In this document: one piece after another, positions 6,871 through 55,352 of the stretch | Position numbering within the stretch: the stretch's first letter is position 1 | Layout of the letters: the number at the start of each line of letters is the position of its first letter | Source of the DNA: Lysobacter capsici | GTDB lineage: Bacteria > Pseudomonadota > Gammaproteobacteria > Xanthomonadales > Xanthomonadaceae | Assembly: GCF_014779555.2 (NCBI RefSeq) | Contig: NZ_CP094357.1 | Span: forward strand, 4,774,001 to 4,838,000 | Direction of reading: 5' to 3' | Length of the DNA stretch: 64,000 nucleotides | The notes under the pieces: model-generated | Databases searched by the model: none | What the model saw: the letters and a program-made list of their open reading frames with translations, nothing else | What the model was told of the DNA's origin: nothing | Translations under genes and position numbers: made by a program

Positions 6871-6980
6871 TTGGGGATTCGGGGTTCGGGATTCGGGTTC
6901 CACGGCCGCGGCCGCGTCAGACGCGGAAGTCGGCTCGGCTTTCGCTTTCCCACTCCCGATTCCCGATTCCCGATTCCCGC
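6871..6980. repeat. Paired GGGNATC heptad element, copy 1 (secA-Nudix gap)
   Basis: The left arm (6872-6900) has G-rich GGGATTC/GGGTTC units and the right arm (6948-6979) has complementary GATTCCC units, enclosing about 47 bases. The arms can pair as one long hairpin, or the G-rich strand could fold into a G-quadruplex. It begins 6 bases after the secA stop codon and ends about 10 bases before the GTG of the next gene. Confidence 0.85.
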
Positions 6981-6985
6981 CGCTT

Positions 6986-9706
6986 TCAGCCCAACTGCCC
7001 ATGGCAATGCTTGTACTTCTTGCCGCTGCCGCAGGGGCAAGGATCGTTGCGGCCGACATTGGCGAAGGCTTCCTCGGACACTTCCGCGGCTTCCTCGTCG
7101 GCGCCGAAACCGCCGGCGCTCGCATGCTGGAACTGCATCTGCTGCAGCTGCGCTTCGGCCTGGGCGCGCTCCTGCGCTTCCAGGGCGGCGACTTCCTCTT
7201 CGCTCTGGATGCGCACGCGCGCCAGCAGGGTCACGACTTCGCGCTTGACCTTGTCGAGCATCTCCGAGAACAGCTCGAAGGCTTCCTTCTTGTATTCCTG
7301 CTTGGGCTGCTTCTGCGCATAGCCGCGCAGGTGGATGCCCTGGCGCAGGTAGTCCATGCGCGCCAGATGCTCCTTCCAGTTCTGGTCGAGCACGTTGAGC
7401 ATGATGTGCTTTTCGAGCATGCGCATGGTTTCGCTGCCGAGCTGGACCTCGCGCGCGGCGAAATGCTCGGCGACCGCGTCCTGGACCTTGGCGGCGATCG
7501 ACTCGGCGTCGAGTTCCTCGGCCTTGCTCGCCATCTCCACCAGCGGCACCTGCACGTTGAATTCCTGGGCGATGGTCGCTTCCAGGCCCGGCAGGTCCCA
7601 CTGCTCGTCGACCGAATTGGCCGGCACGTGGCGCTGGACCATATCGGCGACCACGTCGCCGCGGATGCCCTCGACGTTCTCGTTGACGCTTTCGGCTTCC
7701 AGCAACTCGTCGCGCTGGCCGTAGATCACCTTGCGCTGGTCGTTGTTGACGTCGTCGAAATCCAGCAGGTTCTTGCGGATGTCGAAGTTGTGCGCTTCGA
7801 CCTTGCGCTGCGCGTTGGCGATCTGCTTGGTCACCAGCGGGCTTTCGATGATGTCGTCTTCCTTCAGGCCCATGCGCGCCATCACGCGCTGCACCCAGTC
7901 GGCCGCGAAGATGCGCATCAGGTTGTCTTCGAGCGACAGGTAGAAGCGCGAGGAACCCGGGTCGCCCTGACGGCCGGCGCGGCCGCGCAGCTGATTGTCG
8001 ATGCGGCGCGATTCGTGGCGCTCGGTGCCGACGATGTGCAGGCCGCCGGAGGCCTTGACCGCATCGTGACGCTCCTGCCATGCCGCCTTCAGGCGCTTGT
8101 GGGTGACTTCGTCGATCGGCTCGCCGTTGTTCTGCGCGGCCAGTTCGGCCAGTTCGCTTTCCAGCGAACCGCCGAGCACGATGTCGGTGCCGCGACCGGC
8201 CATGTTGGTGGCGATGGTGATCGCGCCCGGACGGCCGGCCTGGGCGATGATGTTCGCCTCGCGCTCGTGCTGCTTGGCGTTGAGCACTTCGTGCGCGACG
8301 CCGGCCTCGGTGAGCTGCTGGCTGAGCATCTCCGACACTTCGATCGAGGTCGTGCCGACCAGCACCGGCTGACCGCGTTCGTGCGCGGCCTTGATCTCGC
8401 CGAGCACCGCGCGGTACTTGCCCGCGCGGTTGAGGAACACCTGGTCGGAGTGATCCTTGCGCTGCATCGGCCGGTTGGTCGGGATCACGATCACTTCCAG
8501 GCCGTAGATGCTCTGGAATTCGTAGGCTTCGGTGTCGGCCGTACCGGTCATGCCGGACAGCTTCTTGTACATGCGGAACAGGTTCTGGAAGGTGATCGAG
8601 GCCAGCGTCTGGTTCTCGCGCTGGACCGGCACGCCTTCCTTCGCTTCGACCGCCTGATGCAGGCCGTCGGACCAGCGGCGACCCTGCAGGGTGCGGCCGG
8701 TGAATTCGTCGACGATCACCACTTCGCCGTCGCGCACGATGTAATCGACGTCACGCTGATAGATCGCATGCGCGCGCAGCGCCGCGTTGAGGTGATGCAC
8801 GACCGAGATGTTGTGGCCGGCGTACAGCGAATCGTCGTCTTCCGACAGGATGCCGGCCTTGCGCAGCAGTTCCTCGGCGTGTTCCTGGCCGGCTTCCGAC
8901 AGATAGACCTGCTTGCCCTTCTCGTCGACCCAGTAATCGCCGTCGCCGTCTTCCTTTTCCTGACGGGTCAGCGAGGGGACGATGCGGTTGACCTTGATGT
9001 ACAGCTCAGGCGATTCGTCGGCCGGGCCGGAAATGATCAACGGGGTGCGCGCTTCGTCGATCAGGATCGAGTCGACTTCGTCGACGATCGCGTAATGCAG
9101 GCCGCGCTGGAACCGGTCGTCCTTCGACAGCGCCATGTTGTCGCGCAGGTAGTCGAAGCCGAATTCGTTGTTGGTGCCGTAGGTGATGTCGCTGGCGTAG
9201 GCGGCATGCTTGTCGCTGTGCTGCATGCCCGGGTACACCACGCCGACGCTCAGGCCGAGCCAGTTGTACAGCTTGCCCATCCACGCCGAGTCGCGCCGCG
9301 CCAGGTAATCGTTGACGGTGACCACGTGCACGCCCTTGCCTTCGAGCGCGTTGAGATACACCGGCAGCGTGCCGACCAGGGTCTTGCCCTCGCCGGTGCG
9401 CATTTCGGCGATCTTGCCCAGGTGCAGGACCATGCCGCCGATCAGCTGCACGTCGTAGTGACGCATGCCGAGCACACGCTTGGACGCTTCGCGGCAGACC
9501 GCGAACGCCTCCGGCAGCAGCTTGTCGAGCGTCTCGCCGGCGGCGATGCGCTGCTGGAACTCCGGAGTCTTGGCCTGCAGCTGCGCATCGGAGAGTTTTT
9601 CCATCTCCGGCTCGAGCGCATTGATCTTGACGACGGATCGTTGCAGTTGACGCAGCAGGCGATCGTTGCGGCTGCCGAAAACGCGGGTAAGCAAGCTGTT
9701 GAGCAT
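6986..9706 (-). CDS. secA: Preprotein translocase ATPase SecA
   Basis: A 906-residue motor that pushes unfolded preproteins through SecYEG. Visible features are Walker A (MRTGEGKT, near residue 105), the [15 protein letters not shown] helicase motif near 210, the GRGTDI motif near 510, the helical scaffold/wing region, and a C-terminal zinc/SecB-binding motif ([14 protein letters not shown]) in the last 20 residues. Length and domain order are normal. It stands behind a 646-base gap that separates it from the upstream M23 peptidase gene, so it probably has its own promoter. It supplies the Sec pathway for the secretin and lipoproteins encoded here. Confidence 0.98.
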
Positions 9707-9901
9707 GAACGGGTCCGTGTAAAGCGAACGGGGATTGCACAGGCGGGACGCTTAAGAGCGCGTCGGCGCCGGCAAGTTCCCAGGGAATCCAGACAACCGG
9801 CTCGATCCGTTCGCTTCGCTGCCCCAAAACGAAATCAGCAAAACGAGATCAGGGGCGCCGTGCGCCCCCGATCGGATCGAGCCTGGTCTTTGGCCACACG
9901 C

Positions 9902-9907
9902 ATTCTA
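9902..9907 (-). promoter_or_regulatory. Candidate -10 element for secA
   Basis: On the minus strand the hexamer is TAGAAT (5 of 6 to TATAAT). It would give a secA leader of about 190 bases. No good -35 is found at 16-18 bases, so this is weak. Confidence 0.3.
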
Positions 9908-10097
9908 GCGTGGGGGGCGTGCTGAACGGTATCAAGGGGGATGTGCGCCGATCGAATGTGGGACTTTGCCCGATTCCACAGTTTCGGGATTCGGGATTCG
10001 GGGCGTTGAGGTCGCTTGCTTGCCGGCCCGCAGACGAGCCTACGGCTAGGGCACCGGCTGGCTGGTCAGCTTGGGATCGCGGCCGCGGCGCACTGCG

Positions 10098-54005: not shown

Positions 54006-54413
54006 ATGCCGATCCTTCTGCCGATCCTCGCCTTCATCGCGCTGCTGGCGTTCGCGCCGGAAGCGGCCATGAAACTCGGCGCCTGGTTCGCCGTCACCAC
54101 CGTGACCGTGCGGATCAGCGCGGACAAGCTGGTCGGTTGCGCGGTGAGCTACGGCGAAGCCGCCTGGGCGGTGATCTACGCGGCGATCGCGCCGGTGCTG
54201 GTGATCTTCGGCCTGCTCAGCTTCGGCGCGTCCACCGGCATCACCCAGTTCCAGGGCGCCGGCACGATCGTGATCCTGGCGATTCTGCTGGGCTCGTTCA
54301 TCGCCGCGTTCATGCTGGCGCTGCACACCAGCTTCAAGGACAGCGCGATCATCGCCGCGGTCACCACCGTGACCAGCGTGGCCCTGGCGCTGCTGATCCG
54401 CGGCCTGACGTGA
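54006..54413 (+). CDS. Small polytopic membrane protein of unknown function
   Basis: A 135-residue, very hydrophobic protein with about four membrane helices and few charged residues; no motif recognised. The frame is open from 53913, but the stretch before 54006 is Arg/Asp-rich and unlike the rest, so I start at MPILLPILAF. It is followed by map after 75 bases. Confidence 0.6.
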   Translation: MPILLPILAFIALLAFAPEAAMKLGAWFAVTTVTVRISADKLVGCAVSYGEAAWAVIYAAIAPVLVIFGLLSFGASTGITQFQGAGTIVILAILLGSFIAAFMLALHTSFKDSAIIAAVTTVTSVALALLIRGLT

Positions 54414-54488
54414 GAGCGTCGGCACGCCCAGAGCACGCGCATTGCGCGATCATGCACGCACACCCGAGCCGGACCCGAGGATGACCCC

Positions 54489-55226
54489 ATGACCGTACTG
54501 CACGCCTTCGAACTCGAGGGATTGCGCCGCGCCGGCTCGCTGGTGTCGACCATCCTCGCCACGATGCGCGAAGCCGCCGTCGCCGGCGCGGTCTCGCGCG
54601 ATCTCGACGCGATCGGCGCGACGATGCTGCGCGAGGCCGGCGCGCGTTCGGCGCCGCAGCTGACCTACGACTTCCCCGGCGCAACCTGCATCAGCATCAA
54701 CTCGGTCGCCGCCCACGGCATTCCCGACGCCAGCGTGTTGCGCGACGGCGACCTGGTGAACATCGACGTCTCGGCCGAACTCGACGGCTACTTCGCCGAC
54801 ACCGGCGGCAGCTTCGTGGTCGGCACCGCCAGCGCGGCCCAGCAGAAACTGCTCGACGCGACCTTGGAAGCGCGCGACAGCGCGATCGCGCAACTGCGCG
54901 CCGGCAACCTGCTCAACAGCATCGGCCGCACCGTCGAAACGGTGGCGGCGCGACGCGGCCTGCGGGTGATCCGCAACCTCGGCAGCCACGGCGTCGGCCG
55001 CGCCCTGCACGAAGCCCCGGGCAACATCCCCGGCTACTACGACCCGCGCGACACCCGCCGCCTGCACGAGGGCATGGTGATCACGATCGAACCGTTCCTG
55101 GCGACCCACTGCACCCACACCGACGAAGGCGACGACGGCTGGGCGATGCGCTGCCGGCGCGGTTTCGCGGCTCAGTTCGAGCACACGGTGGTGGTGACGT
55201 CGGGGGAGCCTATCGTCGTCACGTGA
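54489..55226 (+). CDS. map: Type I methionine aminopeptidase
   Basis: A 245-residue dimetal enzyme that removes N-terminal methionine. The five metal ligands can be placed: two Asp in NIDVSAELDGYFADTG near residues 89-101, His in SHGVGRALHEAP near 165, Glu in ITIEPFL near 199 and Glu in AQFEHTVVV near 231. The sequence differs from the usual map beside rpsB, so it may be a second copy; a paralogue outside the window would settle this. Confidence 0.92.
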   Translation: MTVLHAFELEGLRRAGSLVSTILATMREAAVAGAVSRDLDAIGATMLREAGARSAPQLTYDFPGATCISINSVAAHGIPDASVLRDGDLVNIDVSAELDGYFADTGGSFVVGTASAAQQKLLDATLEARDSAIAQLRAGNLLNSIGRTVETVAARRGLRVIRNLGSHGVGRALHEAPGNIPGYYDPRDTRRLHEGMVITIEPFLATHCTHTDEGDDGWAMRCRRGFAAQFEHTVVVTSGEPIVVT

Positions 55227-55229
55227 TGG

Positions 55230-55352
55230 GGAGGGAATCGGGAATGGTGAATCGGGAATCGGTAGAAGCAAAGGCCGAGGCTTCCGATCTTCGACTCCGG
55301 TTCCAACTCAACTTCGACTCGTGATTCCCGATTCCCGATTCCCGATTCCCGA
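55230..55352. repeat. Paired GGGNATC heptad element, copy 5 (map-pyrF gap)
   Basis: The left arm is at 55231-55262 (GGGAATC, GGGAATG, GTGAATC, GGGAATC), the right arm at 55323-55351 (GATTCCC x4) and the loop about 60 bases. It ends 8 bases before the AAAGGA ribosome-binding site of pyrF. Confidence 0.88.

Follow-up and report, generated by a model that had tools for sequence, protein, structure and literature searches.

Five inverted repeats in a 64,000-base stretch of the Lysobacter capsici chromosome (positions 4774001-4838000 of 6,239,188 bases; hereafter the window) are each built from two arms of tandem 7-bp units, such as GGGAATC, on either side of a loop. These are Lysobacter members of the GGGNATC inverted-heptad family known from Xanthomonas. 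They are probably non-essential, palindrome-type hairpins at gene ends, which template switching reworks and through which translation can run. As far as genome comparison can tell, the elements are shown to be present or absent at the same joint between sister species, often 4-7 nt from stop codons, and to keep phase at four coding sites. By the same kind of comparison, their two arms are shown to be mostly of the same unit type, and their loops to be inverted or rewritten between close relatives. By analogy, such behaviour would best be read as that of dispersed hairpins resembling the Rickettsia palindromes. Positions given below are those of the window, and seven-digit positions are those of the chromosome.

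The inverted-heptad family in Lysobacter

All five copies proposed by an earlier note on this DNA were found by direct reading and by an independent array detector, which calls runs of three or more consecutive units similar to GGGAWTS. The design it described (an arm, a loop and an inverted arm) is real, repeated and far from chance, with approximately four GGGAWTS heptads per arm. Copy 1 (6867-6978) is at the secA/mutT-thiE joint, with arms at 6867-6894 and 6951-6978 and a 56-base loop at 6895-6950. Copy 2 (14597-14776; arms 14597-14624 and 14749-14776) is at ftsA/ftsZ with a 124-base loop, copy 3 (19183-19316; arms 19183-19210 and 19289-19316) is at murG/murC with a 78-base loop, copy 4 (27955-28062; arms 27955-27982 and 28035-28062) is at rsmH/ftsL with a 52-base loop, and copy 5 (55233-55350; arms 55233-55260 and 55323-55350) is at map/pyrF with a 62-base loop.

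Two details of the earlier description need correction. GGGAATC-type arms had been claimed for all copies, but the left arm of copy 1 is of the GGGATTC type (T-type) and its right arm of another (A-type), and this pair is less well matched. Inverted pairing had been called consistent, and this holds for 5 of the 6 arrays or pairs in the window but not for a plus-strand array of five GGGAATC units (51698-51732), which starts 6 nt after a stop codon and has no partner arm. The nearest opposite-strand GATTCCC belongs to another repeat. The window has a 120-base repeat pair (43630-43749 and 51815-51934, 94% identical) with a TGGATTCCCGC..TTCGCGGGAATGACG palindrome that contains GATTCCC and can be mistaken for a heptad arm.

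Arrays were counted in 1.25 Mb of L. capsici sequence (450 + 400 + 400 kb), which is 20% of the 6.24-Mb chromosome. The 71 arrays found there form 24 convergent pairs, with no divergent and no same-strand neighbours within 250 bases. Random placement outside called genes (n = 1000) gave means of 0.84 convergent, 0.88 divergent and 1.77 same-strand neighbours, with a convergent maximum of 5, so opposite-strand arrays are far closer together than chance would put them, which was the spacing check that the earlier note had proposed. Density along the chromosome is uneven, the three stretches containing 40, 25 and 6 arrays and 15, 7 and 2 convergent pairs. Relatives' stretches have no divergent neighbours and few same-strand ones (one each in genomes G001, G003 and G008, and three in a second G001 stretch), and the detector found no array in any of the 12 stretches that were run as reversed sequence. 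Simple pattern counts agree: exact GGGAATC/GATTCCC occurs 36 times in the window against 10.2 expected (20 first-order simulations), and GGGNATCGGGNATC occurs genome-wide 153 times forward and 159 times in reverse, with 0 matches for the reversed-pattern control.

Paired arms have a near-fixed length. Given a detector minimum of three units, 119 of 142 paired arms (from stretches of several genomes, orthologs included) have exactly four, compared with 37 of 70 single arrays, which range from 3 to 20 units with a long tail. Across 128 Lysobacter arms the profile is GGGAWTS, with A (57-68%) or T (24-27%) at position 5 and mostly C or G at position 7; in the same profile, the outer side tends to TGRRGCC. 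By eye, the inner ends of both arms often resemble G[GT]AAAAGC, a motif that is loosely conserved. Complementarity between arms is imperfect, at approximately 85%. In folding models the arms can form strong hairpins, the RNA of copies 1-5 having z-scores against shuffles of -2.15, -7.6, -5.7, -10.96 and -3.3. No Rfam family reached threshold at any heptad copy in the window. The loops are locus-specific, as the earlier note had seen: when loops were compared with one another by BLAST (E up to 1e-3), two matches within a genome were found, each of 15 nt. The CTGTTG-rich part of the ftsA/ftsZ loop has matches of approximately 20-44 nt elsewhere in the sequence compared.

Abundance varies widely within the genus. 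Across 20 genomes, L. capsici included, there are 0-535 two-unit A-type matches and 0-237 T-type matches per genome. Overlapping pair-pattern matches range from 0 to more than 200 per genome within one genus. The ratio of A-type to T-type is strongly genome-dependent (e.g., 5/213 in G010 and 272/25 in G006). Genome G058 has many copies of another palindrome, GGGAATCCAGTGAC..GTCACTGGATTCCC, which is distinct from the heptads.

Elements in reading frames and beside stop codons

The earlier note placed these elements in the gaps of core operons. This fits copy 2, which is non-coding, and copy 5, which we take to be non-coding, but it is only partly right because 3 of the 5 copies are in open reading frames and a further L. 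capsici copy is in the middle of a helicase gene. Copies 1, 3 and 4 are in frames that are predicted to be coding, with phase conserved across species: the N-terminus of MutT-ThiE, a mini-ORF between murG and murC, and the tail of RsmH.

The rsmH/ftsL joint gives the largest comparison. The rsmH gene (27927-29000, minus strand, putative start) encodes a MraW methylase domain, and its last approximately 44 codons cross copy 4 to reach a stop codon that overlaps the ftsL start. Counted from a fixed rsmH codon, the projected ftsL start lies at a distance of 2 mod 3 in 75 of the 76 loci compared (L009 and G003 in this set being one genome), and all 21 loci with a long insert are among these. These long inserts measure 92-176 nt and contain a recognised array in 18 of 21 cases, the other 55 loci having 11-35 nt. 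In every one of the 21, no more than 4 nt separate the rsmH stop codon from the projected ftsL start. The ftsA/ftsZ joint serves as a control: there the ftsA stop codon is native, lengths are free of phase, and the three phases are taken by 24, 24 and 21 of 69 loci.

At murG/murC, a 55-aa mini-ORF (19167-19334, minus strand) runs through copy 3, its ATG overlapping the murG stop codon and its TGA overlapping the murC start, each time as ATGA. The same arrangement, with a mini-ORF of 52-60 aa between two ATGA overlaps, is found in all 11 Lysobacter loci with a long insert (151-175 nt). Both arms were recognised in six of these, one arm in two (G015 and G018) and none in three (G004, G009 and L011), and the mini-ORF is open even in those last five. 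GGAG or GGAGG precedes the mini-ORF ATG in 11 of 11, and in 11 of 11 the murC ATG has at most three matching ribosome-binding bases. Among nine bare loci compared, eight have at least four ribosome-binding bases before murC, with one start misassigned. Most bare relatives have a single ATGA or GTGA overlap, and G003 is bare here with a murC 96% identical to that of L. capsici. The closest named matches to MurC of the window are in Lysobacter sp. Root690 (99%) and L. enzymogenes (95%), which places this DNA in Lysobacter. Two simpler readings of the Lysobacter insert were rejected: murG does not read through the element, since the L. capsici gene ends at TGA 19331-19333 before it and the open frame is the separate mini-ORF, and murC is not extended upstream through it, since in G001, G005 and G018 that frame is closed inside the insert.

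Xanthomonas has a different arrangement at this joint. In 9 of 9 loci (L039, L041, L042, L044, L046, L050, L051, L052 and L063), the murG frame extends by 51-75 codons, passes through the arms where these are recognised and ends in a GTGA overlap with murC. Armless murG/murC inserts of 9-25 codons also exist, in L012, L027 and seven Stenotrophomonas loci (L030, L031, L033, L034, L036, L037 and L049), where they sit between ATGA- or GTGA-to-ATGA overlaps.

Copy 1 is at the other end of a gene. The 357-aa MutT-ThiE reading frame (5929-7002, minus strand) is a fusion of NUDIX and thiamine monophosphate synthase (TMP-TENI) domains, which begin at residue 51; its ATG is in the secA tail and copy 1 encodes its N-terminal part. 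In 10 of 11 Lysobacter genomes, the frame stays open across the secA/mutT joint as far back as an ATG within the end of secA, and both arms were recognised in 7 of these 10. The eleventh, G006, has only a remnant and a closed frame, and in seven loci from other or more distant species the arrangement is absent.

The fourth coding site is outside the window, where the element at 4668929-4669034 (L094:8929-9034) is in the middle of an open reading frame for an HrpA-like helicase, which we take to be HrpA. In 7 of 20 genomes of the genus, the corresponding stretch is 60-63 nt long; the other 13 have 90-120 nt, with both arms recognised in 8 of them. In all 20 its length is a multiple of three and it has no stop codon. 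No arm was detected in G002, G004 and G009, and one arm in G010 and G019. Unit type, assigned by detector and by eye, differs among genomes: G005 and G006 have GGGACTC, G009 has GGGACCC-like units, and G012 has mostly GGGAATC with GATTCCC. In these genomes it is the same in both arms, but not in L. capsici, G001 or G003.

Position is also related to stop codons. With orthologous copies included, 56 of 71 pairs have an array end 2-8 nt away from a stop codon, compared with 16 of 71 for a control window. Many arrays begin 4-7 nt downstream of a stop codon (e.g., copy 5 begins 6 nt after that of map), and a stop codon is 2-7 nt before an arm in 12 of the 24 L. capsici pairs, a position like that of the Xanthomonas repeats. 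Either targeting or selection may produce this abutment.

Loop inversion, arm types and competing explanations

The two L. capsici pairs in 5010001-5410000 are not part of the comparison with relatives. Against G001, whose third codon positions in ftsZ, murC and secA are 93% identical, 19 loops were testable, of which 15 are in direct orientation, 2 are inverted and 2 are unclear. The 35-base loop at 4734085 matches its G001 counterpart on the minus strand with 88.6% identity over 35/35 nt, and the loop at 4875008 does so with 94.4% identity over 18 nt; in a separate shuffle test of each inversion, the count was 0 of 500. Both loops are short and their flanks are unchanged. G003 agrees with L. 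capsici at 4875008 and leans to G001 at 4734085 (z 3.0 vs 1.0). A formal match to an inverted loop at 193379 was judged spurious. Against other relatives, 10 loops are direct, none inverted and 15 unclear.

Loops also differ more between these genomes than other sequence does. Median identity to G001 is 0.74 for loops (n = 20, better orientation), 0.91 for arms and 0.89 for array-free gaps (n = 111), against 0.93 at the third codon positions, and 11 of 20 loops have an identity of 0.75 or less. The arms of a pair mostly share a unit type: of 92 pairs, 61 are A/A, 18 T/T, 5 mixed and 8 other. Arm identity within pairs is 0.853, compared with 0.836 when partners are shuffled within a genome (0 of 2000 shuffles reach the observed value).

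A classical DNA invertase acting over so short a loop seems unlikely. Template switching between short inverted repeats, as described in the parts of PMC8604942 used here, homogenises arms and inverts the spacer, and because it is known to do both, we infer it as the process that flips the loops and rewrites the arms. It would fit the inverted loops of approximately 35 bases, the one-type arms and the fast loop turnover. On this reading, template switching during replication would take place between the two arms, and translation would run through the insert, so an overlapping stop/start joint could accommodate an element that preserves phase. In Lysobacter, the mini-ORF at murG/murC would bring ribosomes from the murG stop codon to murC, which lacks a good ribosome-binding site, while in Xanthomonas the longer MurG tail would take up the element. 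The in-frame insertions that keep phase are in unrelated protein genes (rsmH, mutT-thiE, hrpA and murG/murC). A stronger possibility, which we put forward tentatively, is that these are self-rewriting, protein-coding palindromes. Their arms would be a standing substrate for template switching, with the loop flipped or replaced faster than its neighbours while ribosomes run through. RsmH, MutT-ThiE, HrpA and Xanthomonas MurG would thereby gain fast-changing peptides, and the Lysobacter mini-ORF would take over murG-murC coupling.

Several observations weigh against the account of translated, template-switched hairpins. Its main weak point is that base-by-base similarity between partners is missing within the A/A class, where partner arms are 0.880 identical and non-partners 0.876 (259 of 2000 shuffles reach the observed value); we therefore reject base-by-base covariation in this class, and only unit type goes together. 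Even unit type is unlike between the arms of the HrpA copy in L. capsici, G001 and G003 and of the mutT copy in L. capsici and G001. The two Lysobacter inversions are few, and a probable third, at one Xanthomonas joint, is weak: 5 of 28 species pairs give z-scores of 3.5-3.7, and the loops concerned are themselves near-palindromic. As many as 23% of array-free control gaps also have an identity of 0.75 or less. Most of the 24 L. capsici pairs are not coding by crude calls, the cross-species frame comparison concerns four coding sites, the species compared for phase are not independent, and a Pseudoxanthomonas locus (L029) has a murG/murC element that fits neither the mini-ORF nor the MurG-tail pattern. 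Open frames are also easy to obtain here, as 204 of the 256 possible GGGNNNN heptads have no stop codon in any of the six frames. Stop-freeness was therefore rejected as a special property of these heptads, and it is phase, not openness, that carries the frame argument.

The earlier note suggested that the hairpins shape transcript ends or ratios within operons. As stated, this is not supported: a simple scan for terminator-like sites (a stem and then a run of T), limited to loops of 3-8 bases, which is shorter than these loops, gave none at the copies, and several of the joints are bare in relatives. A broader version is that functional RNA hairpins, or a G-quadruplex competing with a hairpin, set the expression of operon genes from near stop codons as REP sequences do, with selection keeping the arms complementary. 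The strong predicted folding (z down to approximately -11), the nearness of array ends to stop codons, the shared arm types and four-unit arms, and the G-quadruplex formation in vitro reported for heptad units (PMC4692102) all suit this explanation. We nonetheless consider it unlikely. The core joints are bare in close relatives at the same genes (G003 at murG/murC; G018, G004 and L011 at rsmH/ftsL), which speaks against an essential role, the arms show no base-by-base complementarity apart from their shared type, and Rehm et al. (PMC4692102) state that no regulatory role could be identified.

Mobility could alternatively come from a transposase acting in trans on MITE-like elements (miniature inverted-repeat transposable elements) with heptad arms as terminal inverted repeats. 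The elements are dispersed, their arms are of near-fixed length, their numbers differ greatly within one genus, and whole inserts are present or absent at murG/murC and rsmH/ftsL, where ATGA on both sides of the murG/murC insert resembles a 4-bp duplication in one suggestive case. Interiors, however, are not shared between loci by BLAST, and target-site duplication in general was rejected, as there is no signal over 24 L. capsici or 21 G001 elements (326/500 and 295/500 permutations reach the observed value). Y1 transposases, the mover we considered, number 0-4 per genome and are absent from heptad-rich G007, so as far as per-genome counts go they are not supported in that role. We judge transposition in trans to be improbable. 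Ordinary simple-sequence repeats grown by slippage, with inverted pairs being arrays at both borders of one gap, are more improbable still: single arrays of 3-20 units do exist and the ftsA/ftsZ loop resembles, by eye, the leader of armless relatives, but slippage is at odds with 24 convergent pairs against no other neighbours, with paired arms mostly of four units where single arrays are long-tailed, and with unit type going together within pairs.

The window has other repeats and RNAs. Three tandem copies of a 174-base unit (approximately 86-91% identical over the parts compared) are at 58474-58885, two tandem copies of a 98-base unit (89%) are at 10113-10310, and GCC-rich repeats whose spacing is a multiple of 9 nt, which may be repetitive coding sequence, are at 36917-37436. 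Rfam identifies RNase P RNA class A at 30851-31210 and an FMN riboswitch at 43200-43371, both on the minus strand.

Relation to known repeats

The element belongs to a known kind, here in one more genus, and its design is not new. Inverted pairing, which the earlier note singled out as what stands out, had appeared in print for Xanthomonas, where Rehm et al. 2015 (PMC4692102) report 70 and 75 convergent inverted pairs in two genomes, and the parts of their paper used here describe heptad units, a four-unit preference, sense-strand positions near stop codons and no established function. For Xanthomonas oligonucleotides that paper also reports G-quadruplex formation in vitro, and the earlier note had mentioned GGGNATC repeats as possible G-quadruplex formers. 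The likeness includes the unit, the preference for four, convergent pairs, location between aligned open reading frames near stop and start codons, and dispersal, and heptad pairs are at the same joints (rsmH/ftsL, murG/murC and ftsA/ftsZ) in Xanthomonas and Lysobacter loci. In the parts compared, the Xanthomonas report is silent on conserved frames, on a mini-ORF that bridges two genes, on inverted loops and on whether both arms share a type, and Lysobacter is not named in it. Our literature search, which left most subscription journals outside, found no paper joining Lysobacter with GGGAATC, and GGGNATC in PMC4692102 only. With the same scope, frame conservation, the bridging mini-ORF, the Xanthomonas MurG tail, the HrpA insert, loop inversion and shared arm type are new, no earlier description of them having been found for the GGGNATC family.

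REP sequences and their BIME arrangements are the familiar palindromic, dispersed repeats next to stop codons, BIMEs being inverted pairs with variable linkers, and a REP next to a stop codon regulates translation. In contrast, a heptad arm is itself no palindrome, and no link to a Y1 transposase was seen in per-genome counts. The Rickettsia palindromic elements (Ogata et al. 2000, as cited in PMC6649704) are, as described in parts of the citing paper, likewise dispersed palindromes which sit in frame in protein genes without destroying them. The likeness is by description, and our elements differ in that their arms are 7-bp tandem units, their interiors are unshared and most copies seem to be outside open reading frames. 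The coding palindromes of Nematomorpha mitochondria (PMC6649704) are also inverted repeats in coding sequence with arms kept alike, template switching being a possible mechanism; they are mitochondrial and perfect, and in the parts of the paper used they are not described as heptads.

Inverted heptad pairs have been described but unexplained in Xanthomonas since 2015, and the present comparison makes them testable through their predicted loop flipping and predicted translation. If our reading is true, they would be a further bacterial case, beside the Rickettsia palindromes, of dispersed hairpins built into core proteins. The murG/murC joint would then illustrate two ways of living with an insertion in an overlapping stop/start joint, by a mini-ORF in Lysobacter and by a MurG tail in Xanthomonas.

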